A DNA stretch of 64,000 nt from Paraburkholderia sp. (GTDB taxonomy: Bacteria; Pseudomonadota; Gammaproteobacteria; Burkholderiales; Burkholderiaceae). Every line of letters begins with the position of its first letter. Position 1 is the stretch's first letter. The notes below the pieces were generated by a model. It was not told the origin of the DNA, ran no database searches, and saw nothing but the letters and a program-made list of their open reading frames with translations. Location of the stretch: the NCBI GenBank assembly GCA_004322045.1, contig SCRN01000034.1, forward strand, positions 124,001 to 188,000, read 5' to 3'. A program made the translations under genes and the position numbers. Shown here in pieces: positions 176-11,824 of this stretch.

Positions 176-955
176 TCACCTAGCGATATGCGCGCCGAGG
201 CCAACCTGCCCAGGCGCCACGTCCTCTTTCAGCGTGCATTCGGGAATGTCGTAGTCGCCGCCATTCTGCCGTCGATAGGGGATCGGGCGCGTGCTCCAAA
301 GCTCGTCGAGCCTGCGCCCCAACGCATCGCAGGTTTGTGCAAACCTCGCCTCGTCCATCTTGCCCGTTCGATAGACGACGAACGGCGGCAGCACCTCGAA
401 ACCCGGGTAGAACAGCGTGCCGTGGTTGATCGGAAACAACACGTCGTCGATCGGTCCGTTGATCCCGCGCGCGCTATAGTGCGGCTCCCAGCCTCCGGCC
501 GACACGACTAGCATGGCGCGCTTGCCGGCCAAGGATCCCTCGCCGTAACGATCGCCCCAGCGATGGTCGGAATGTTCCCCGACGCCGTAGGCGAAACCGT
601 ATGCGTACACCCGCTCGACCCATCCTTTCATGATCGCCGGCATGGAAAACCACCACAGCGGAAATTGAAAGATGACGGCATCGGCCCATTTGAGTTTCTC
701 CTGCTCGCTCGCAATGTCTTCGCTCTGCGTGCCGCTCTGGAAAGCATGCTTGGAATCGCTCGACGGGTGAAACACGGCCCCGGGCACGTGGTCGGTACTA
801 TCACCGGCGTCCAGCACCGCCTTCCACTGCATCTCGTACAGATCGGAAACGCGCACGGTATGCCCCGCATCTTCCAATCGCTTCACGGCAAATGCCTTCA
901 GCGCTCCGTTGAAAGACCTCGGCTCGGGATGCGCATAGACGATTAGGACCTTCAT
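176..955 (-). CDS. NAD(P)H dehydrogenase (quinone)-type flavoprotein
   Basis: A 259-residue protein of the flavodoxin-like NAD(P)H oxidoreductase family (MdaB/NQO1/YwrO group), which reduces quinones or nitro compounds with FMN or FAD. The N-terminus IVYAHPEPRSFNGALK is the phosphate-binding loop of the fold. Residues near 95-110 (ADAVIFQFPLWWFSMPAIMKGW) are the family's isoalloxazine-contact region, and VVSAGGWEPHYS follows. The length is normal. It is divergent from a LysR gene across an 86-base gap, the usual arrangement for a reductase controlled by its own LysR regulator and induced by an electrophile. The substrate is not predictable. Confidence 0.88.
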   Translation of the reverse strand: MKVLIVYAHPEPRSFNGALKAFAVKRLEDAGHTVRVSDLYEMQWKAVLDAGDSTDHVPGAVFHPSSDSKHAFQSGTQSEDIASEQEKLKWADAVIFQFPLWWFSMPAIMKGWVERVYAYGFAYGVGEHSDHRWGDRYGEGSLAGKRAMLVVSAGGWEPHYSARGINGPIDDVLFPINHGTLFYPGFEVLPPFVVYRTGKMDEARFAQTCDALGRRLDELWSTRPIPYRRQNGGDYDIPECTLKEDVAPGQVGLGAHIAR

Positions 956-1041: not shown

Positions 1042-1941
1042 TTGGATAATCGCCTTCGACGCCTCGATCTGAACTTGCTCGTCACGCTGGACGCCTTGCT
1101 TAGCGAGCTGAACGTGACGCGGGCGGCTCAGCGCCTGCATTACTCGCAGCCTTCGGTCAGCGTCCAGTTGGCCAAGTTGCGGGATATTTTCGACGACCCG
1201 CTCCTCTTGCCCGGTCCGCGCGGCATGCGTCCGACGCAACGTGCCGAGCAACTGCGCGAGCCGTTGCGCGAAGCGCTCGATGCGCTGGAGTGTGCGGTGG
1301 CGCCGGCGCGGCCTTTCGATCCTTTGGCAGCCGATCACACATGGAAGCTGGCCGCGACAGACTACGCGGAATCGACCATCGTGCTACCGGCCCTGCAGGG
1401 CCTTCGTACCAGCGCGCCGGGCTCGCGCCTCGCCGTGGTGGAAATGGTGCCGCCGCGCTTCGAAAAGCAAGCCGAACAGGGTGACATCGACATCGCTTTT
1501 CATACAACGATAGGGGCGCCGGAAGGTCTGCGCCGCCGCATATTGTTCGCCGAGCGCTACGTGTTGATCGGCCGCGCCGGTCATCCGCGCTTGAAACGGC
1601 GTCCGACGCTCGCGCAATTCTGCAAGCTCGAACATGTCATCGTGTCGCCGGACGGCGGCGGGTTTCGTGGCGTCACCGATGAAGTGCTCGGCGAAGCCGG
1701 CCTCACACGGCGAGTAGCGCTTTCGGTTCCGCACTTTCTCTTTCTCATCGCCGCAGTGGCGCAGACGGATCTCGTCGCGATGGCGCCGCATCGCCTCGTG
1801 CGAGACAACCCGGCGCTCACCATCGTCGAAGCTCCGGTCCACGTTCCCGGCTACGAGATGTGCATGCTCTGGCACGAACGCGCGCATCGCGATCCGGCGC
1901 ATCAGTGGCTGCGAGAGCATCTCGTTGCTTCGATTGGATGA
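1042..1941 (+). CDS. LysR-family transcriptional regulator (NodD-like group)
   Basis: A 299-residue LysR protein. Residues 8-65 hold the winged HTH (LDLNLLVTLDALLSELNVTRAAQRLHYSQPSVS), followed by a LysR substrate-binding domain to about 295. The RRLDLNLL opening is typical of the NodD-like group. The start used is TTG at 1042, because no in-frame ATG lies near the conserved N-terminus. It probably controls the divergent NAD(P)H oxidoreductase. The effector is unknown. Confidence 0.87.
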   Translation: MDNRLRRLDLNLLVTLDALLSELNVTRAAQRLHYSQPSVSVQLAKLRDIFDDPLLLPGPRGMRPTQRAEQLREPLREALDALECAVAPARPFDPLAADHTWKLAATDYAESTIVLPALQGLRTSAPGSRLAVVEMVPPRFEKQAEQGDIDIAFHTTIGAPEGLRRRILFAERYVLIGRAGHPRLKRRPTLAQFCKLEHVIVSPDGGGFRGVTDEVLGEAGLTRRVALSVPHFLFLIAAVAQTDLVAMAPHRLVRDNPALTIVEAPVHVPGYEMCMLWHERAHRDPAHQWLREHLVASIG

Positions 1942-2517: not shown

Positions 2518-3879
2518 ATGGAACGGGGATTTTCAGCGCAAGCGGTTACGGTGCAGTCGAATCAAGGGTGGCAGTCAACGGGGATCACAGTCGACGGCAG
2601 TATCGGCGTGACCGTCGCGTATCAAACCGGTCAGTGGGAAGTGGACGCCGACGACGATGACGACGTGCCCTATGACGCGAACGGCAGTCAGATGATGGAG
2701 GCCATCGACGGTGCTCCCTTACCCTACAAGGCACTCGGTGCGCTGGTAGGGCGCATCGGCACTTCCGGACAACCGTTCTGGGTCGGTGACGGTCCCACGA
2801 CGCTTCCCAAAGGCCAATCCGGCATGCTTCAGCTTGCCACCAATACCGACTTGAGCAAGGACCTAAGCAGCAATGTCGGCAATGTCACGGTATTCATCTA
2901 TCCCGAGATCACCGTTGCTGATCTATCGACGCCCCTCGTCAGCGAACCGCCGCAGAGTATCCCGGCCGTGCCGACGGAGGGCTTGGGTCCACTCGCGCAT
3001 TTGATTGGCACCTGGACCAACCAACCGCTCGGGACCTCGGGCAAAGGTGGTACCGACAGTCCCTTCTCGTACAACGTCATGCCGTTACCGCAAGCCGATC
3101 CCTCGGCGCCTCCCGGCTACTTCCTTAAGAACTTCTCCTACTACGAAGAGCTCACCTTTACGGCCATCCACGGCCCGGTTCTCAACCGCAACGGCAACGG
3201 TGCGCAAGTCGCCTATACGCTGTTTTACGAGCAGCGCGTCTATTTCGCGGAGGGTCCTAAAAAGGATGCCCTGGTACATGCCGAAAACGGCTCGATGTTG
3301 TTATTGGGCGATCAGAAGCAACCGCTCGGTCCCTACGGGAACGGGTTCCTGCAGGGCGAGGGCAATCAAACGGTCCCAGACAGCATCGCGCCGAACCAGT
3401 CGTTCAACGTTGCGAAGCAGATATCCGTGCCGCACGGTAATTCGATCCTTGCCCTTGGCTCGTACGCCACGGGCAGCTGTGCACCGGTCATTCCACCGGC
3501 GACGGTGCTGCCCTCCGGGGACGTCGACCCCTTTCCCTACACATGGAAGAACGAGCCCACGAATCCGCAGCCAAGCTATACCGCCAATCCGAACCAAGCG
3601 CTGACGGACGCGCTGGCGATTCGAGCACCGACAAATTTCATCGCGCTGAACGTCAGCTCCGCGAACGGAAGTGGCGCAGTCAGCAATATCGGCTTCGAGC
3701 AAAAGTACAGCAATGTCTCCCGCTACGACTTCACCTGCTGGCTAGAGAGCTTTGACGGGGGAAGCAGTTTTCCGCAGTTGCAATACAGCCAGTCCATCAC
3801 ATTACTGCTGCAAATCAAAAACGGCCTCGTGTCCTTCCCGCATGTGACGACCAATACGCTGACGAAGAAACCCTCGTGA
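2518..3879 (+). CDS. LecA-like lectin domain plus lipocalin/nitrobindin-like domain protein
   Basis: A 453-residue protein, first gene of a four-gene operon. Residues about 8-130 resemble the PA-IL (LecA) galactose-binding lectin fold: GWQSTGITVDGSIGVTVAY, an acidic DADDDDD stretch, GALVGRIGTSGQPFWVG, and a strand ending VTVFIYPEI. Residues about 155-450 start with LAHLIGTWTNQPLG, the GTW signature of lipocalin/FABP-like (nitrobindin-like) barrels. No signal peptide is visible; LecA itself also lacks a classical one. The start follows the LecA-like domain border; the ribosome site is weak. The next gene begins 13 bases downstream. A carbohydrate-binding or carrier role for the modified neighbour protein is inference. 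Confidence 0.7.
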   Translation: MERGFSAQAVTVQSNQGWQSTGITVDGSIGVTVAYQTGQWEVDADDDDDVPYDANGSQMMEAIDGAPLPYKALGALVGRIGTSGQPFWVGDGPTTLPKGQSGMLQLATNTDLSKDLSSNVGNVTVFIYPEITVADLSTPLVSEPPQSIPAVPTEGLGPLAHLIGTWTNQPLGTSGKGGTDSPFSYNVMPLPQADPSAPPGYFLKNFSYYEELTFTAIHGPVLNRNGNGAQVAYTLFYEQRVYFAEGPKKDALVHAENGSMLLLGDQKQPLGPYGNGFLQGEGNQTVPDSIAPNQSFNVAKQISVPHGNSILALGSYATGSCAPVIPPATVLPSGDVDPFPYTWKNEPTNPQPSYTANPNQALTDALAIRAPTNFIALNVSSANGSGAVSNIGFEQKYSNVSRYDFTCWLESFDGGSSFPQLQYSQSITLLLQIKNGLVSFPHVTTNTLTKKPS

Positions 3880-3892
3880 CCGACCTGGAGAA

Positions 3893-5980
3893 ATGAGCAT
3901 GTCCCACCTCGATTCAACGGGCAAAGATCTGCCTGTGCGTCCGCTCAGCGAAGCGGAGCAACGCCTGGTGCGCCATATCGATGAGCATTGGAATCGCGCC
4001 CGCGCGTTAAGCGAGCTACGTGATGGGCTGCAGACCGCCGTCGAAATCGAACTTGCGACGGTACCGCTTTACTTGTTCGCCTATTACTCGATAAACCGTA
4101 CACCCGAAGGCTTTCCGGAGACCGAACTGTCCCGCTTCGCCGGTCAGGCGGGCGGCATCATGATGAGCGTCGCGGTCGAGGAAATGCTTCATTTGTCGTT
4201 GTCGTCCAACATGCTCTTTTCGCTCGGCGTGCAGCCGCAGCTCTATTTGCGCTCACCCTCGCCCTATCCAACGGATCTGCCGGGTCATGCCAGGCTCGGC
4301 CCCGACCGCAAGCCAATGGCGCTTCCCCTGGCCAAGTTCTCGCGCGAGCAGCTATGGCAGTTCCTCGAAATCGAATATCCGGCGTCGGCAGATGCCCCGC
4401 CTGAGTTGAACAATTGGCAGACGATCGGCCAGATCTATTCCTTCCTTCGTTGCATCATCAGTTCGAAGCACATCACTGACGACGATTTCAAGTCGGGGCG
4501 AGCGCCGGCCCAGATCCAGCCGTCCAACTATTCGCCGAACAACATCGACTCGGTATATCCGACTGCCGGCTTCAATTACGGCTGTCCGATTCCCGCGCCG
4601 GCGGGCGGCTCCGCGGCGACCACCGCCGCTTATGCGAGCCGCGGCGATAGCCACGCCGGCCGCAGCGCGCTGATGACGATTGCATCGCGCAAAAACGCTC
4701 TCCAGGCGATCCAAACGATCGACGCCGAGGGCGAGGGCTTTGGCCCTGAGAAGTTCGACGATGAGAGCGACCACGAGCTCTCGCACTACTACAAATTCCT
4801 GACGCTGCAATCGCAACTCGTCGGCTACGATCCCCACGACGAAAAATTGCGGAACCTGCCGCCCCCGCCTCCGCCGGCGGCACGTCAGTTCGGCCCGGAT
4901 GAGCTCGCGAAAATCATGTTCAATTTTCCCGACAATCCCGTTGCCGCCGCGTACCCGCCGGGGCGCCGCGAGCTCGCTGACATCGTCAGTGGTCTGTATC
5001 AGTATATGTTGATCATGACCGAGAGCATCTTCCTCATCGAACCGAGCCAGCAAAAGCTGTACTTCAATCAGACGCTGCACCGATCGATGATCTGGATCCT
5101 CGATAAGGTCATCCAGGCGATGCGCAAGCTCTCCTTGAACGGTGCGGACGGCTACCCCGGCATGCTCCAATTGGCACCGACTTTCGAGAACATCAATCTG
5201 GGCCCGCGCAACCAGGCCTTCGCTACGCTGGTCGCCATGTGTAAGGGGATGGATGCCAAATATGGCGGCGAATCCTGGTACAGCAGCGACGCGCAATATT
5301 TCGTCGACATGGTCCCCACTTTGCCGGATGTCAGCGGGCTGTGGCAGGCACAGCCCGATCAGCCGACATTGGGCAAGCCCGGCTGTGACGTCAGCAAATA
5401 TCAAGGCATTCCGAAGTTTCCCGCGACGCCGCCTGCGCCCGGCGACCTACTGGCTGGCGAGGTCCGGCATGCCTGCATGGGGTTGAACCAATGCAAGGGA
5501 CAAGGACGCACCCGCGATAATGCGTGCGCTGGCCAAGGCTATTGCTCGACGGCGCTGGAATTCAACTTCGCCGACCCGGACGCGCCGCTCGTATCGGATC
5601 ACACCTGCCGCGTCCAGAACGCGTGTGCAGGTCAAGGCGGTTGCGGTCTGTACGGCACGGGACATGAACAAGAGACGCCAGGAGCGAACGCCTGTGCCAC
5701 GCAAGGCTGCTGTGCCACGCCGATCAACGCCGAGCGCTTCAGCACCGACGGGCACAACCGCGGAAAGAGCGTGTGGTTACGCGCACGCGAAGTCTTCACC
5801 GAGCAAACCTGGCCTGAATTGCGGAATAAGAACGCGTCGTTGTCCGCTCAGCCGCCGGAGCCGCCGCATCCCGAATTGTTTCAGTATGGTCCGACCATCG
5901 AGTGGATCCAGGAATATAGCGGTCATGGCATGACGGCTTGCGGGGCCAGCGGCATGAGCGGCGCGGGTAGCTGCAGCTGA
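3893..5980 (+). CDS. Ferritin-like (VioB/RebD-type) protein with Cys-rich repeat tail, proposed MNIO substrate
   Basis: A 695-residue protein. Residues about 40-230 match the ferritin-like domain seen in VioB/RebD iminophenyl-pyruvate dimer synthases (LQTAVEIELATVPLYLFAYY, later VAVEEMLHLSLSSNML), with EIE and EEMLH as plausible metal ligands. The last 175 residues differ: 12 cysteines in repeats CMGLNQCKGQG, NACAGQGYC, CRVQNACAGQGGC and NACATQGCC, and a CGASGMSGAGSCS end. C-x-G-Q-G repeats beside an MNIO gene recall bufferin-type substrates, whose cysteines are turned into thiooxazole-like metal ligands. This tail is therefore the likely modification site. There is no signal peptide. The start at 3893 has the ribosome site TGGAGAA. 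The fusion of a large folded domain to a substrate tail is the odd feature. Confidence 0.8.
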   Translation: MSMSHLDSTGKDLPVRPLSEAEQRLVRHIDEHWNRARALSELRDGLQTAVEIELATVPLYLFAYYSINRTPEGFPETELSRFAGQAGGIMMSVAVEEMLHLSLSSNMLFSLGVQPQLYLRSPSPYPTDLPGHARLGPDRKPMALPLAKFSREQLWQFLEIEYPASADAPPELNNWQTIGQIYSFLRCIISSKHITDDDFKSGRAPAQIQPSNYSPNNIDSVYPTAGFNYGCPIPAPAGGSAATTAAYASRGDSHAGRSALMTIASRKNALQAIQTIDAEGEGFGPEKFDDESDHELSHYYKFLTLQSQLVGYDPHDEKLRNLPPPPPPAARQFGPDELAKIMFNFPDNPVAAAYPPGRRELADIVSGLYQYMLIMTESIFLIEPSQQKLYFNQTLHRSMIWILDKVIQAMRKLSLNGADGYPGMLQLAPTFENINLGPRNQAFATLVAMCKGMDAKYGGESWYSSDAQYFVDMVPTLPDVSGLWQAQPDQPTLGKPGCDVSKYQGIPKFPATPPAPGDLLAGEVRHACMGLNQCKGQGRTRDNACAGQGYCSTALEFNFADPDAPLVSDHTCRVQNACAGQGGCGLYGTGHEQETPGANACATQGCCATPINAERFSTDGHNRGKSVWLRAREVFTEQTWPELRNKNASLSAQPPEPPHPELFQYGPTIEWIQEYSGHGMTACGASGMSGAGSCS

Positions 5981-5993
5981 GGAGCGCTGAGAT

Positions 5994-6950
5994 ATGACGG
6001 CACTTCGAGGGGGCGCTGCTGCCGAGCATCAGCTTGGCTTCGGCGTCGGACTGCGCAACCAGCATTTCGACCATATCTTGGCAACCCGGCCGCCCGTGGA
6101 TTGGTTCGAGGCCATCTCGGAAAATTTCATGGATTCGGGCGGCCGGCCGCGCGCCGTCCTGCGCCGGATCGCCGAACATTATCCGGTCGTACTGCATGGC
6201 GTATCCCTGTCGATCGGCAGTACCGACCCGCTCGATCACGACTATCTCGCCCGCTTGCGGCAACTGGCCGACGAGGTATCGGCCCGCTGGGTCAGCGACC
6301 ATCTGTGCTGGACCGGCATGCAGGGGATCAACAGCCACGATCTCCTGCCGCTTCCGCTAACCGAAGCGACGTTGGTGCATGTGAGCACGCGGGTTGCCGA
6401 GGCACAGGAGTTATTGGGGCGGCCCTTGGTATTGGAAAATCCCAGCACCTATGTTCGCTTTCGCCAGTCGACTCTGGACGAGCCGACCTTTCTGCGCGAA
6501 CTCAGCCGGGCAACGGGCTGCTGGCTGCTTCTCGATGTCAACAATGTATATGTCAGCTGCTTCAATGCCGGCACCGATCCGGTGGACTATCTGAACCGGT
6601 TTCCATTCGATCGCGTCGTGCAATTGCACCTAGCCGGACATCAGCATTGCGGCACCCATATCGTCGACACGCATGATCGACCAGTTTCCGAGGCGGTGTG
6701 GCAGCTCTTCCACTTGGCTTGGCAACGCAGTGCGCAAGCAGCCACCTTGCTCGAGTGGGATGGCGATGTGCCCGCCTTCGAGCGTGTGTACGCCGAAGTG
6801 ATGCGGGCGCGACAGATTATCGATGGCGACCGTTCCGTCGATGTCGAGGCTGCCGACCAGCAGCAACCAGACAAAGCAGAGGCGGTATCCACGCCGGTTG
6901 CGTTCTTGGTGCCCGAAATCTTGAGCAACAGCGACACGTGCCAGTCATGA
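5994..6950 (+). CDS. MNIO family (DUF692) multinuclear iron oxidative enzyme
   Basis: A 318-residue DUF692 TIM-barrel protein, the family of MbnB, TglH and bufferin-modifying BufB, which use two or three irons and O2 to rearrange cysteines in peptides. Visible metal-site segments are VVLHGVSLSIGS (His), WVSDHLCW (Asp, His), LVLENPSTY (Glu), LLLDVNNVYVS (Asp, Asn), VVQLHLAGHQHCG (two His), VDTHDRP and LLEWDGDVP (Glu). All expected ligands appear present. The start has the ribosome site AGGAG 9 bases upstream. It follows the Cys-rich protein by 13 bases and overlaps the next gene by 4 (ATGA), so coupled translation with its partner is likely. Confidence 0.93.
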   Translation: MTALRGGAAAEHQLGFGVGLRNQHFDHILATRPPVDWFEAISENFMDSGGRPRAVLRRIAEHYPVVLHGVSLSIGSTDPLDHDYLARLRQLADEVSARWVSDHLCWTGMQGINSHDLLPLPLTEATLVHVSTRVAEAQELLGRPLVLENPSTYVRFRQSTLDEPTFLRELSRATGCWLLLDVNNVYVSCFNAGTDPVDYLNRFPFDRVVQLHLAGHQHCGTHIVDTHDRPVSEAVWQLFHLAWQRSAQAATLLEWDGDVPAFERVYAEVMRARQIIDGDRSVDVEAADQQQPDKAEAVSTPVAFLVPEILSNSDTCQS

Positions 6951-7786
6951 ACATCGACCAGGATCGATTGGCGGTGCTGCAACGATGGATGCTCGACGCG
7001 TTGGTCGCGCCGGACGGCGTGGGCGCCGATACCGTCGACGCCACCTTTCTGCCTGGGCCGAAGCTGTCGCCATCGGCCTGCCTAGCGATCTATCAGCGCA
7101 GCTACATCCTGCGCTTGCGCAACTGCTTGGAAGAGCAGTTCCCGGCCAGCCGCCACGCCCTGGGACCGGCTCTTTTCGCCGACTTCGCAGACGAGTATCT
7201 GCGAGTCTGTCCGTCCGACAGCTACACGCTGCACGAGCTCGGCCGACGCTTCCCGAAATGGCTCGAGGACAATCGTCCGGATCGAGGCAAGCCGCCGGAA
7301 AGACGCGAGTCATGGATCGATTTCATGATCGACTTAGCGACTTATGAGCGCGACCTCTACCGTCTGTTCGACGCGCCGGGCCATGAGGGTCAGCCTTGGC
7401 CTGACGTGTCGGTCGACGACGACAAACTGATCCTTCAGCCGTGCTTGGTTCTAGTCGAGTACCTCTATCCCGTCGCCTGGTATTACCACGAGGTGCGTGC
7501 CGGGCGCTCACCACAGTTTCCAGCTGCCAAGCATTCCTACGCAGTGATCCTGCGCCGCGATTTCCTCACGCACACTTTTCCGGTCACTCGCCTGCACTAC
7601 AGATTCCTGTCGCTTGTGAAACAGACTCGAAATTTACGGGGGTCTCTGGAGGCAATTGCCGCCGAGTCAGAGTTTCCCATTGACGACGTATGGAGATCCT
7701 GGCGCCGCGAGGTACGCCGGTCTTGGCTGGAAGCGGGCTTCTTCGTCGAGAAAAAGGGCGATCAACGGCCCATACACCAGACTTGA
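6947..7786 (+). CDS. DUF2063 partner protein of the MNIO enzyme (BufC/HvfC-like)
   Basis: A 279-residue protein. The N-terminal 100 residues (LAVLQRWMLDALVAP, then LAIYQRSYILRLRNCLEEQFPASR and ALFADFADEYLRVCPSDSYTLHELG) are the DUF2063 helical domain of HvfC/BufC proteins. The C-terminal half is the beta-rich domain found in such partners. These proteins bind the precursor and present it to the MNIO. Its start overlaps the MNIO stop. It closes the operon and is followed, convergently, by the accessory island. The family call is secure; its action on the upstream Cys-rich protein is inference from gene order. Confidence 0.85.
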   Translation: MNIDQDRLAVLQRWMLDALVAPDGVGADTVDATFLPGPKLSPSACLAIYQRSYILRLRNCLEEQFPASRHALGPALFADFADEYLRVCPSDSYTLHELGRRFPKWLEDNRPDRGKPPERRESWIDFMIDLATYERDLYRLFDAPGHEGQPWPDVSVDDDKLILQPCLVLVEYLYPVAWYYHEVRAGRSPQFPAAKHSYAVILRRDFLTHTFPVTRLHYRFLSLVKQTRNLRGSLEAIAAESEFPIDDVWRSWRREVRRSWLEAGFFVEKKGDQRPIHQT

Positions 7787-7793
7787 CCTCATC

Positions 7794-8048
7794 TCATTTT
7801 ACGCAACCCCTGGGCCCATGGATGTATGCACCACGAGCGCTGGGCGTCAGTACCTTCCTGAACATGAGTGGACAGCATGCCCCTAGACTATTGAAATTTG
7901 CACGGGCCTCGCGAAGCGTCAGCCCGTGATTTGCACCGGACCGCACGTCGATTTCGGCCCGGCGAAATCCGTCGTCTTCCCAATAGCAGATCGGGCAGAT
8001 TTCCCAACCGCCCACTTCAGATAGGGTGTAATAATCGCAGCAAGGGCC
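7794..8048 (-). pseudogene. CPCC-family cysteine-rich protein, 5' end damaged
   Basis: Reading leftwards, PCCDYYTLSEVGGWEICPI followed by CYWEDDG and LREARANFNSLGAC matches the small Cys_rich_CPCC family, usually YPCPCCGYxTL...EICPVCFWEDD. An in-frame TAG (8049-8051) sits two codons before the first conserved Cys pair and no ATG is available; only an internal GTG at 8015 could start a shorter form lacking the first knuckle. CPCC proteins often sit in toxin/immunity neighbourhoods. The gene abuts the end of the MNIO operon with a 7-base convergent gap. Confidence 0.6.
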
Positions 8049-8742: not shown

Positions 8743-9822
8743 CTACGCGCCAGCTGCACCAGGCAGCAGGTCGCGAAAGGCTTTATCCATGGCGAGGGCC
8801 GCACCGATCATTCTCGTTTGGATCTCGGGCCACTCCGTCCGCTGGGATTTCCATCCACCTGGGAGGCTTTGGCTGATACGACAAGCCCGGCTGCCGGACA
8901 GCTTGTCCCAAACGAGCGGGCCGGCAATGCGCTCGACCGCGTCCTTCCTTGCCTCCAGGTAAGCTAGCGACCGGAGGTTGGCGTCCTTGTCCCCACGGTC
9001 AATATAGATTTCGATCTGGACATCGTCACCCCGGATGGCGTAATTCAAGTTGACCCCGTCCCCTCGGCCAATCCAACCGCGCTCGGACGGGGCTCTATTC
9101 CCGTGGGGCGCCCCCTTCTCTCGGGCCAGTTCGAGGACACCTGTCCAGAATTCACGACGCTGGGCATGACGTGGTCCCCTCCGTTCCTCCACGCGCTTAT
9201 CGGCTAGCTTGGTGAGATATTCCGAGGCTTCTGGTAACGGAATGATCTGCTGGGCGTCTACTAGCAAGGTACCGTCGGCAAGGCTGTAGGGCTTCAGCCT
9301 GACGCAGCGGACGTCAATGCCGCGCTCGTTCAGCCAGAGCACCGTGGTCGTTACTTCACGGCTAAAATCCGCCGCGGCCAGAACAATCCGGACGTCCTTG
9401 CCAAACTCTTCATCCATCGGCTCAGCCCACCCGAGGAACGCGAGAATGTCCGCCTCGGCGCGATCGGTGGCGTCCAGTCGCTTGTACTTGGCATAGGCGT
9501 CGACGAGTTGGGCGAAGGTCATGCTCGACACCATCGCGGCATAGCGGAGTGCTTGGAGGTCGGAGTGGCCAGCGTCGTCGGTGCGCTTCAACTCGATGAT
9601 GACAAGGTTGGCATCCCGGTCTAGGCAGAGCAGGTCGACACGCCGGCTGCTGTCCGACCAGTCAGCGAATTCCTCCGCCACGACCATGACGTCGGAAGCC
9701 AGGATCGAAACGTCGGCCTTGATACGGCGCTGGATGTCCTCCCGCTCGCGCAGGCCAGCCGCAGCGAAGGTCGTTTCAGCGACCGGAACAAAAGCGTTGT
9801 CTTCCATGCGATAGATCGCCAT
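8743..9822 (-). CDS. DUF4268-type protein with PD-(D/E)XK nuclease domain
   Basis: A 359-residue protein. Residues about 55-85 read RRVDLLCLDRDANLVIIELKR: a D-x(13)-ExK nuclease core with Asp63, Glu77 and Lys79. Residues 90-200 complete a restriction-endonuclease-like fold of the NucS/DUF91 type. The C-terminal 130 residues resemble the DUF4268 domain (WTGVLELAREKG, then KDAVERIAGPLVWDKL). Such proteins are found in defence-rich islands, but no modification partner is nearby. The start chosen is ATG at 9822 after CGGGGGATGC; a TTG at 9840 would add six residues. Confidence 0.72.
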   Translation of the reverse strand: MAIYRMEDNAFVPVAETTFAAAGLREREDIQRRIKADVSILASDVMVVAEEFADWSDSSRRVDLLCLDRDANLVIIELKRTDDAGHSDLQALRYAAMVSSMTFAQLVDAYAKYKRLDATDRAEADILAFLGWAEPMDEEFGKDVRIVLAAADFSREVTTTVLWLNERGIDVRCVRLKPYSLADGTLLVDAQQIIPLPEASEYLTKLADKRVEERRGPRHAQRREFWTGVLELAREKGAPHGNRAPSERGWIGRGDGVNLNYAIRGDDVQIEIYIDRGDKDANLRSLAYLEARKDAVERIAGPLVWDKLSGSRACRISQSLPGGWKSQRTEWPEIQTRMIGAALAMDKAFRDLLPGAAGA

Positions 9823-9905
9823 GCATCCCCCGATGATCAACAGCCCTTGATGCGGCCAACGAACTGCAAATACCGCTTCTCATGACCGCTCTCCGATCCG
9901 ATGCG

Positions 9906-10810: not shown

Positions 10811-11824
10811 TCACTGGGCGCCCCCCGGTGAATGATCCCGTTCCGCAGGCACATCCGTCGCTGCGAGCGCCATCTCCTGGCTTGTATGCTGTCGCGCCAG
10901 GAGCCCCGTCAAGTGCGAGCCGAGGTCCAGGATACCCGCGTCGCGGAGTTCTGCTGCGACGCGCATCGAGCGTCGCTCAGAGCGAGGCAGCAAGATCGCC
11001 CGGGTGGCACCAAACGGCCGTGGCATATCGTGCCATAGCCAAGTCGCTTTGAAAGCCTTCAAAGCGTCAAGAAAGGCGTTCGCGATAGGGGGATCATCGG
11101 AAATGACAAATATCTCGAAATCGCGACGCAGCGACGCTATCGCCGCCCCGTTCAGAGAGTAGGTGTAGAGACTGCCCATAAGTGGTACCGGCCGGCCAAG
11201 ACGCGTAGCAATGTACTTGGCAGCTGCGAAGTGATGCGATCCCCCATCGTTCATCAACCACAGCCGCCCATCCCATTGATACCGTGCGAAGAAGTCCGAA
11301 GCGCCACGGTCTGGGAAAATCCTGATCTGGTCGTGCGCAAGATTCTTCTCGAGTTTCGCGAGCGAAATCTCGTCGATCATGTCTCTACTGTTCCTCTCCA
11401 CCATCTCGTCGGTGCTGCGAAATGCAAATAAATCGGACTTGGAGCCGGAAAACCCATGCACGTCGGAAATATCGCATGTCCAATCCGGCGTGATCGTCCT
11501 TTGCCCAATCGAGGCGTACTCCGCCCGCTCCTGAAGGAAGCCATGGTAGGACTCACCGCCCCATTTCCAACCTGTCAAGACGCCACGCGGAACGTCCGAC
11601 CGGCACGAGCCCGATGCTCCACCGAGTTGGTCCCATCGCGTGATACTCCTTGCATGGATGCATAATTCGGGCTCGTTCAAGTTGACACGAGCATCCGGTT
11701 GCCGAGCGAGTAATTGAATCAAGGTGGACGGATGACCAAATTGCTCGCGGATGCTGTCGGTGATGCTCCGAATAACGCCCAGGATCGGAGCTGCGGCCCT
11801 CGTCTTTTCGTTTCTCGCACGCAT
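10811..11824 (-). CDS. DUF6685-like conserved hypothetical protein
   Basis: A 337-residue soluble protein and the largest array member. Segments FAFRSTDEMVERNSRDMI, KLEKNLAHDQIRI and FFARYQWDGRLWLMNDGGSH resemble the DUF6685 family as remembered; its function is unknown. No signal peptide or membrane segment. The upstream gene's TGA is separated from the ATG by 20 bases containing AGAAAACACC, a variant of the array leader. It lies at the distal end of the array, so expression may depend on read-through of the whole run. Confidence 0.62.
   Translation of the reverse strand: MRARNEKTRAAAPILGVIRSITDSIREQFGHPSTLIQLLARQPDARVNLNEPELCIHARSITRWDQLGGASGSCRSDVPRGVLTGWKWGGESYHGFLQERAEYASIGQRTITPDWTCDISDVHGFSGSKSDLFAFRSTDEMVERNSRDMIDEISLAKLEKNLAHDQIRIFPDRGASDFFARYQWDGRLWLMNDGGSHHFAAAKYIATRLGRPVPLMGSLYTYSLNGAAIASLRRDFEIFVISDDPPIANAFLDALKAFKATWLWHDMPRPFGATRAILLPRSERRSMRVAAELRDAGILDLGSHLTGLLARQHTSQEMALAATDVPAERDHSPGGAQ

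Follow-up and report, generated by a model that had tools for sequence, protein, structure and literature searches.

A bufferin-2-related cysteine-rich tail on a ferritin-like protein as the probable substrate of a dedicated MNIO and DUF2063 pair in Paraburkholderia and relatives

A stretch of 64,000 nucleotides from the 6.0 Mb genome of a soil bacterium, Paraburkholderia sp. (assembly GCA_004322045.1, contig SCRN01000034.1, forward-strand positions 124,001 to 188,000; hereafter the window), carries a compact operon of four genes, here called A to D, in which a ferritin-like protein with a Cys-rich tail (gene B) is followed by an enzyme of the MNIO family (gene C) and a DUF2063-type partner (gene D). 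All four genes lie on one strand (+) from 2518 to 7786 and are tightly spaced, with gaps of 13 nucleotides between A and B and again between B and C, and the ATG of D at 6947 overlaps the TGA of C (Table 1). A reading made earlier from the letters alone (the sequence-only reading) had recognized an MNIO operon with a DUF692 and DUF2063 pair, and both points were confirmed: gene C reached 357 bits with PF05114 (cut-off 25; E 6.9e-107) and 356.7 bits with the NCBIfam model NF050167 MNIO_BufB (cut-off 310), and gene D passed the DUF2063 model PF09836. The RRE (RiPP recognition element, where RiPP stands for ribosomally synthesized and post-translationally modified peptide) region of gene D scored 19.9 bits with NGO1945_C (cut-off 27), and the HvfC model gave 61.3 of 142. 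Residues H68, H103, E148, D181, N183, H212, D225, H227, E254 and D256 of gene C are identical in all 48 MNIOs aligned; by motif, we take them to be candidate ligands and the catalytic Asp.

Table 1. Features of the operon, of the parts of gene B and of the upstream neighbours (positions in the window)
Feature	Position	Strand	Remarks
Gene A, 453 residues	2518-3879	+	N-terminal ~155 residues, then FMP-type heme-binding domain (residues 156-451)
Gene B, 695 residues	3893-5980	+	PF12902 ferritin-like protein with Cys-rich tail
Gene B, ferritin-like part and linker (residues 1-525)	3893-5467	+	PF12902; structure model; match to 3hl1; invariant residues
Gene B, tail block 1 (residues 526-552)	5468-5548	+	Buf2-like Cys motif; Cys 528, 534, 545 and 551 invariant in 10/10
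Gene B, tail block 2 (residues 570-612)	5600-5728	+	C-x5-C-x5-C-x16-C-x5-C, then ATPIN; Cys 572, 578, 584, 601 and 607 invariant
Gene B, tail helix (residues 627-646)	5771-5830	+	Best-predicted part of the tail; V, W, A, R and F invariant in 10/10
Gene B, C-terminal segment (residues 683-694)	5939-5974	+	Two further invariant Cys
Gene C, MNIO of BufB type, 318 residues	5994-6950	+	PF05114; NF050167; separate clade; Gly at 257
Gene D, DUF2063 partner	6947-7786	+	PF09836, 68.1 bits (cut-off 27.2), E 8.3e-19
Flavodoxin-like-fold protein	176-955	-	Upstream of the operon, divergent from the LysR gene
LysR regulator	1042-1941	+	Ordinary-looking pair with the flavodoxin-like-fold gene

Gene B had been described as a 695-residue ferritin-like protein of VioB/RebD type whose final 175 residues hold 12 Cys. 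The length and the Cys content were as described, since 12 of its 16 Cys fall within that segment (hypergeometric P 3.3e-5). As to the type, gene B reached 120 bits with Pfam PF12902 Ferritin-like (cut-off 22.3; E 1.8e-34), a family that we take to be of VioB/RebD type, and its ferritin part resembles 3hl1 of Caulobacter, the only significant solved relative, both by profile (E 6e-4, residues 37-184 only) and by structure model (Foldseek E 1.9e-6, TM-score 0.67 by target length). In that AlphaFold model, built on a shallow alignment (14 rows), block means of the pLDDT (predicted local distance difference test) are mostly 70-95 in the ferritin part, except at about 121-140, 201-260 and from 481 onwards. 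The family and the fold thus stood, but gene B is not a VioB by the equivalog model TIGR04492, with which it scored 10.7 bits against a cut-off of 1250.

The sequence-only reading had suggested a search for other genomes with a Cys-tailed ferritin-like protein beside an MNIO, and such loci do exist; with the window they now total 16, 12 with the tail fused to the ferritin-like protein and 4 with the two as separate genes (numbered L for loci and G for genomes where a distinction is needed). A scan of named genomes with gene B gave six loci, in Trinickia sp. Y13 (a near twin of the window genome, with gene B 99% identical), Burkholderia sp. OK233, Paraburkholderia terricola, Collimonas humicola, Tahibacter aquaticus and an uncultured Asticcacaulis bin whose contig begins inside B, and in all six C and D follow B; by usual naming we take these hosts to be Alpha-, Beta- and Gammaproteobacteria. 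The fused loci comprise type I (the window, L010 to L015, L034 and L041; in L013 the contig end truncates gene B N-terminally) and type II (L018, L036 and L042), in which a distant PF12902 protein of 655-687 residues bears a related Cys tail and is followed by MNIO and DUF2063 genes. In the split loci (L030 to L033) the order is a ferritin gene (422-432 residues), a separate Cys protein of about 157 residues (in L032 and L033, 172 if counted from the first start codon), the MNIO and the DUF2063 gene, and the ferritin protein ends about 40 residues before the point that matches the first tail Cys of B. Some of these loci are closely related (the window and L011; L032 and L033). The earlier statement that no short precursor is present therefore stood for the window, where 13 small Cys-rich open reading frames listed mechanically between 1900 and 9000 included none that looked like a precursor by eye, but not for the four split relatives, which do have short separate precursors.

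Matches to the tail profile were found in 2 of 369 genomes of a class sample, 8 of 399 of an order sample, 4 of 398 of a phylum sample, and 2 of 100 and 1 of 100 genomes sampled near two of the hits, and the type II profile matched in 2 of 359; these samples overlap, their counts include the window or centre genome where it matched, and two of the matches, L035 and L043, are Buf2-like loci at which no ferritin-like protein matched. Among eleven genomes of the same genus (the window's own and ten others), full-length B occurs only in its own and in G005. Because matches are so few across the sampled genomes, the system is rare and scattered. Searches of mobile elements gave little: no plasmid matched the window tail, and whole B matched 131 plasmid records, all below 60% identity; the 20 listed among these matches span 38-57% of the query, from within the ferritin part to residue 434 at the latest. 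The tail protein of L030 had no match in a phage search, none of 47 pattern-matching stretches found in viral contigs with the tail profile was a relative, PHROGs gave nothing for B or the L030 tail, and PADLOC nothing for B or A.

Among eleven aligned proteins of types I and II, residues E53, E97, H100, E161, E281 and H298 of the ferritin part never vary, and they form a plausible carboxylate di-metal site. VioB/RebD-type proteins are oxidative enzymes. The operon might also be read as a small-molecule (VioB/RebD-like) pathway, with a diffusible substrate for A, B and C and with the tail serving as a passive docking region; the heme-binding domain of gene A fits this idea, as does a partial TIGR04492 match of the L030 ferritin protein (E 1.4e-6). 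That match amounts to 26.4 bits, however, which like the window score lies far under the cut-off of 1250, nine neighbour proteins scanned from seven loci have no family in common, and the main text of PMC12452194 describes MNIOs with DUF2063 partners as acting on peptide precursors, so that we regard such a pathway as very improbable.

The tail, in turn, is mostly unfolded in the AlphaFold model (pLDDT below 50 at 487-564, 566-624 and 666-695), the exception being the helix at 627-646 (block means 70 for 631-640 and 83 for 641-650), which also aligns in type II. Eleven of its 12 Cys (528, 534, 545, 551, 572, 578, 584, 601, 607, 683 and 694, that is all except C606) are invariant in ten tails, in which 62 of 177 columns are invariant overall (P 4.5e-5). 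Each of the four Cys outside the tail is missing from at least one of the 11 rows compared; C187 is present in every fused row and in no split row. In more distant relatives, conservation is higher in the tail than in the ferritin part, with identities to the window (ferritin/tail, %) of 42/61 in L030, 42/60 in L031, 40/59 in L032 and L033, 44/59 in L041, 43/53 in L034, 52/64 in L014 and 69/79 in L015, and the two parts are about equally conserved in the three nearest. The sequence-only reading had seen in this segment a set of Cys-rich repeats; Cys-rich it is, but as a domain of Buf2 type rather than a repeat of separate origin. Aligned by hhalign with ten Buf2 precursors, the tail gave a probability of 95.2% (E 2.8e-8), and the BufA2 model matched weakly in all seven tails scanned, in which the sole other family was marginal and found in one member (E 0.073). 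A Buf1-type domain was also considered and rejected (hhalign against ten Buf1 precursors, 1.6%). Tails of type I and type II are related to each other (97.1%, E 7e-11). As judged by these profile comparisons, the tail is shown to share ancestry with Buf2 precursors.

The enzymes tell a parallel story. In a maximum-likelihood tree of 48 MNIOs, the 16 ferritin-associated enzymes form one clade (support 98/95), whose neighbours are the Buf2-associated MNIO of L035 and then that of L043. Within the clade, whose members were all reached through homology to B or its tail, no MNIO pair was met that lacks a Cys-rich tail, an arrangement that would have refuted the sequence-only reading: a Cys domain is the nearest upstream feature in 16 of 16 loci, fused in 12 and separate in 4. 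Type II is the sister group of type I, within which the split forms nest among the fused ones (some inner supports are only about 80), so the fusion looks ancestral and the fission later. In L035 itself, a 553-residue frame at 4298-5959 (-), downstream of the Buf2-like precursor, comprises the MNIO and about 280 further residues, possibly a joined partner. An independent census covered 91 MNIO loci (92 matches, two fragments being one locus) in the 64 MNIO-bearing genomes among 120; a ferritin-like profile match was present at two of them, the window and G551, both already in the clade, and the other 89 had no ferritin-like neighbour within about 1.5-2 kb on each side, less at contig ends. No other census MNIO fell inside the clade in a FastTree tree of 107 rows (support 0.92).

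A change in the enzyme accompanies a change in the tail. According to the main text of PMC13097082, the residue after the catalytic Asp is a selectivity site, Phe in enzymes acting on Lys-Cys and Asp in those acting on Cys-Lys (BufB2), and the Asp of BufB2 is modelled to meet the Lys of the substrate. This site, which was mapped to alignment position 257 by the motif ERDF/ERDD and not by alignment with FonB itself, is Asp in 11 of 12 Buf2 MNIOs, Phe in all four MNIOs of EGKCG precursors, and mixed, often small, in 13 Buf1 MNIOs, and the acidic residue has been lost throughout the clade, with Gly or Ala in 16 of 16 (Gly in the window). Lys after Cys is found at 41 of 60 sites in ten Buf2 precursors, but at 4 of 45 in four type I tails and 1 of 27 in three type II tails. 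Since Gly or Ala at 257 accompanies the loss of Lys after Cys, enzyme and tail appear to have changed in step.

Taken at face value, many regularly spaced Cys can bind metal without any modification, and the tail could be an unmodified metal-binding domain of metallothionein or zinc-knuckle kind, with the MNIO pair acting on a target encoded elsewhere; the same genome does hold two further MNIOs, each behind a four-Cys Buf1-like precursor (identified by eye), and thus has bufferin precursors at other sites. Against this improbable alternative stand the position of the tail or tail protein nearest upstream of the MNIO in all 16 loci, the kinship of the tail with Buf2 precursors, and the joint variation of position 257 and the residue after Cys. 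We consider it likely that the tail of gene B is a modified substrate domain of the MNIO, working together with a ferritin-like di-metal protein. The proposal that the Cys-rich tail is the substrate of the MNIO/DUF2063 pair, already made in the sequence-only reading, is supported by the split forms, the conservation, the Buf2 kinship, the separate clade and position 257. The C-terminal ~170 residues of B would be a bufferin-2-derived substrate domain for C and D, which would act in the cytosol and oxidize several of its 11 invariant Cys; that the tail is modified at all seems very likely. By analogy with related MNIO/PME1 systems, for which PMC13097082 gives 5-thiooxazole as the product and whose thiooxazole chemistry is also treated in PMC13419390, the oxidized Cys would most likely become 5-thiooxazoles, a product that we rate as rather probable. 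The resulting domain would chelate a metal, probably copper as in the relatives, and would act with the ferritin-like di-metal protein, in the same chain in the fused forms and as a separate protein of the same operon in the split forms. A joint metal or redox function of the two parts is a tentative suggestion.

The ferritin-like domain might instead be an enzyme that tailors the tail or holds it as a substrate, such as a second oxidase or a carrier presenting the tail to the MNIO. All four split forms keep the ferritin gene beside the tail gene, and the four Glu and two His conserved in the ferritin part, together with the oxidative character of its family, would suit such a role, but covalent fusion in 12 of 16 loci would be wasteful for an enzyme, and the FonBC MNIO/PME1 pair was reconstituted in vitro in a study whose main text includes no ferritin-like protein (PMC13097082). 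We consider this role unlikely, though less so than an unmodified tail.

Several observations weigh against the proposed modification of the tail. The NCBIfam BufA2 model scored below its cut-off of 60 bits (window tail 19.2, L030 22), as it did for a Buf2-like precursor (L035, 28.8), with another (L043) above it at 82.2, and the type II tail alone is only weakly Buf2-like by hhalign (38.7%; Buf1 2.5%). The 16 loci all came from homology searches with B or its tail, and the association of MNIO and tail is thus partly built in; the census is the only independent support, with only two positive loci. On the tree, position 257 changed just once, and Buf1 MNIOs, too, commonly have a small residue at this site. 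No DoxX was found among the window proteins scanned, and the tail Cys could, without modification, bind metal or pair as disulfides. An NACKG motif is reported to have been left unprocessed by FonBC (main text of PMC13097082), and the chemistry is therefore not transferable by motif alone. Finally, the main text of PMC12452194 associates DUF2063-type partners with signal-peptide precursors, a rule to which proteins with no visible signal peptide would be an exception.

This last point bears on where the protein acts. The maximum hydropathy over 15 residues within the first 60 was 0.46-1.70 in ten ferritin and tail proteins and 1.92-2.02 in three Buf2 precursors, so that by this crude measure no strongly hydrophobic N-terminus is present in the forms measured. 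The idea of a surface protein, as raised in the sequence-only reading, was not borne out, and such a location is unlikely because neither fused nor split forms show a signal peptide. In L030 and L031, moreover, only 14 residues precede the first Cys; a classical leader is therefore absent, and the site of recognition is probably another one, for which the conserved C-terminal helix of the tail (residues 627-646) is a candidate.

Gene A passes the NCBIfam model NF040572 heme_bind_FMP (234 bits, cut-off 150). A LecA-like part had been proposed for it, which was not confirmed: its N-terminal ~155 residues had no lectin match in Pfam (E<=0.1) or the PDB (E<=1), and its structure model is poor (mean pLDDT 36.7). 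Gene A adjoins B upstream in L010 and L011, as in the window, and in L014 a homologue (57% identical) lies convergent downstream; it had no tblastn match in the stretches examined of L013, L015, L018, L030 to L034, L036, L041 and L042, and for this reason we regard it as accessory, being absent from some relatives. At L012 (Paraburkholderia terricola) only a remnant of A is left at 3260-3446, with B, C and D open. At L021 (7623-9588), in the same-genus genome G003, matches to the ferritin-like protein (+) and to the FMP heme-binding domain (-) lie about 0.6 kb apart, with no tail or MNIO match within the 16 kb examined, so that the pairing of A and B also occurs apart from the MNIO. Between 1900 and 8200 of the window, a promoter scan gave 0 promoter-like sites against 2.1 expected, and a terminator scan 6 terminator-like sites against 5.1 expected. 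Beyond gene D, and outside the operon, lie a convergent Cys_rich_CPCC protein (PF14206, E 1.6e-18) at 7794-8015 (-), itself one of the 13 small Cys-rich frames, a DUF4268 protein at 8743-9840 (-) that matches the PADLOC candidate phage-defence model PDC-S11 (E 5e-106), and a DUF6685 protein at 10811-11824 (-).

Among known systems, the closest are the Buf2 (BufA2) bufferins with BufB2 and BufC2, with which the operon shares the order precursor, MNIO, DUF2063 and related Cys motifs; its MNIO passes the BufB model and its nearest MNIOs in the tree are Buf2-associated. It differs from them in a substrate of about 145-180 residues that shows no Sec signal peptide and in 12 of 16 loci is part of a ferritin-like protein, in the loss of most Lys after Cys, in Gly or Ala for Asp at the selectivity site, and in that no DoxX was found in the window. 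The captophorins (fontiphorin and oxazolin, 5-thiooxazole copper peptides) likewise combine an MNIO, a PME1 partner and a Cys-rich substrate, but have EGKCG repeats and Phe at the selectivity site (main text of PMC13097082), whereas thiooxazole chemistry in the present system is proposed by analogy. Bufferin domains joined to larger metal-related proteins are known (MerC|Buf2 and Buf1|Cytochrom_C|FGE-sulfatase), with no ferritin-like protein among the fusions named in the main text of PMC12452194; in contrast to them, fused and split forms alternate here and the MNIO forms a separate clade. For TIGR04222 proteins, MNIO modification of a C-terminal Cys segment of a large protein has been proposed as well, but these are membrane proteins with PME-type 2 partners, compared here by description only (main text of PMC12452194). 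Gene B is like PF12902 ferritin-like proteins in passing the Pfam cut-off and matching the fold of 3hl1, and unlike them in that the 3hl1 profile match is confined to residues 37-184 and that it is no VioB by the equivalog model.

According to PMC12452194, most precursors modified by MNIOs are exported peptides; the same paper already proposes MNIO modification of large proteins and bufferin fusions, and calls the assignment of precursor status to such open reading frames hazardous. Our literature search found nothing that joins MNIO/DUF692 with a ferritin-like protein or VioB, although supplementary tables, outside its scope, may list the pairing; "ferritin" and "VioB" are absent from the main text of PMC12452194, and "ferritin" from that of PMC13097082. 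The pairing of an MNIO with a ferritin-like protein thus appears new, as far as searched. As a speculation, the product might be a cytosolic metalloenzyme in which the di-metal site and an MNIO-made, copper-chelating thiooxazole tail form one unit for redox or metal handling, with bufferin chemistry co-opted from secreted metallophores as an intracellular protein-derived cofactor, and with an ancestral fusion that underwent fission in one lineage. The family lends itself to a clean test, as the same substrate domain occurs alone (about 157 residues, easily expressed and weighed) or fused to a ferritin-like protein, is served by its own enzyme pair and has no visible signal peptide. Open to direct test are thereby how MNIO partners recognize a substrate without leader or signal peptide, and what role a thiooxazole would have inside a metalloprotein. 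If the proposal is true, copper chemistry of the peptide-modifying kind would extend to a large internal metalloprotein.

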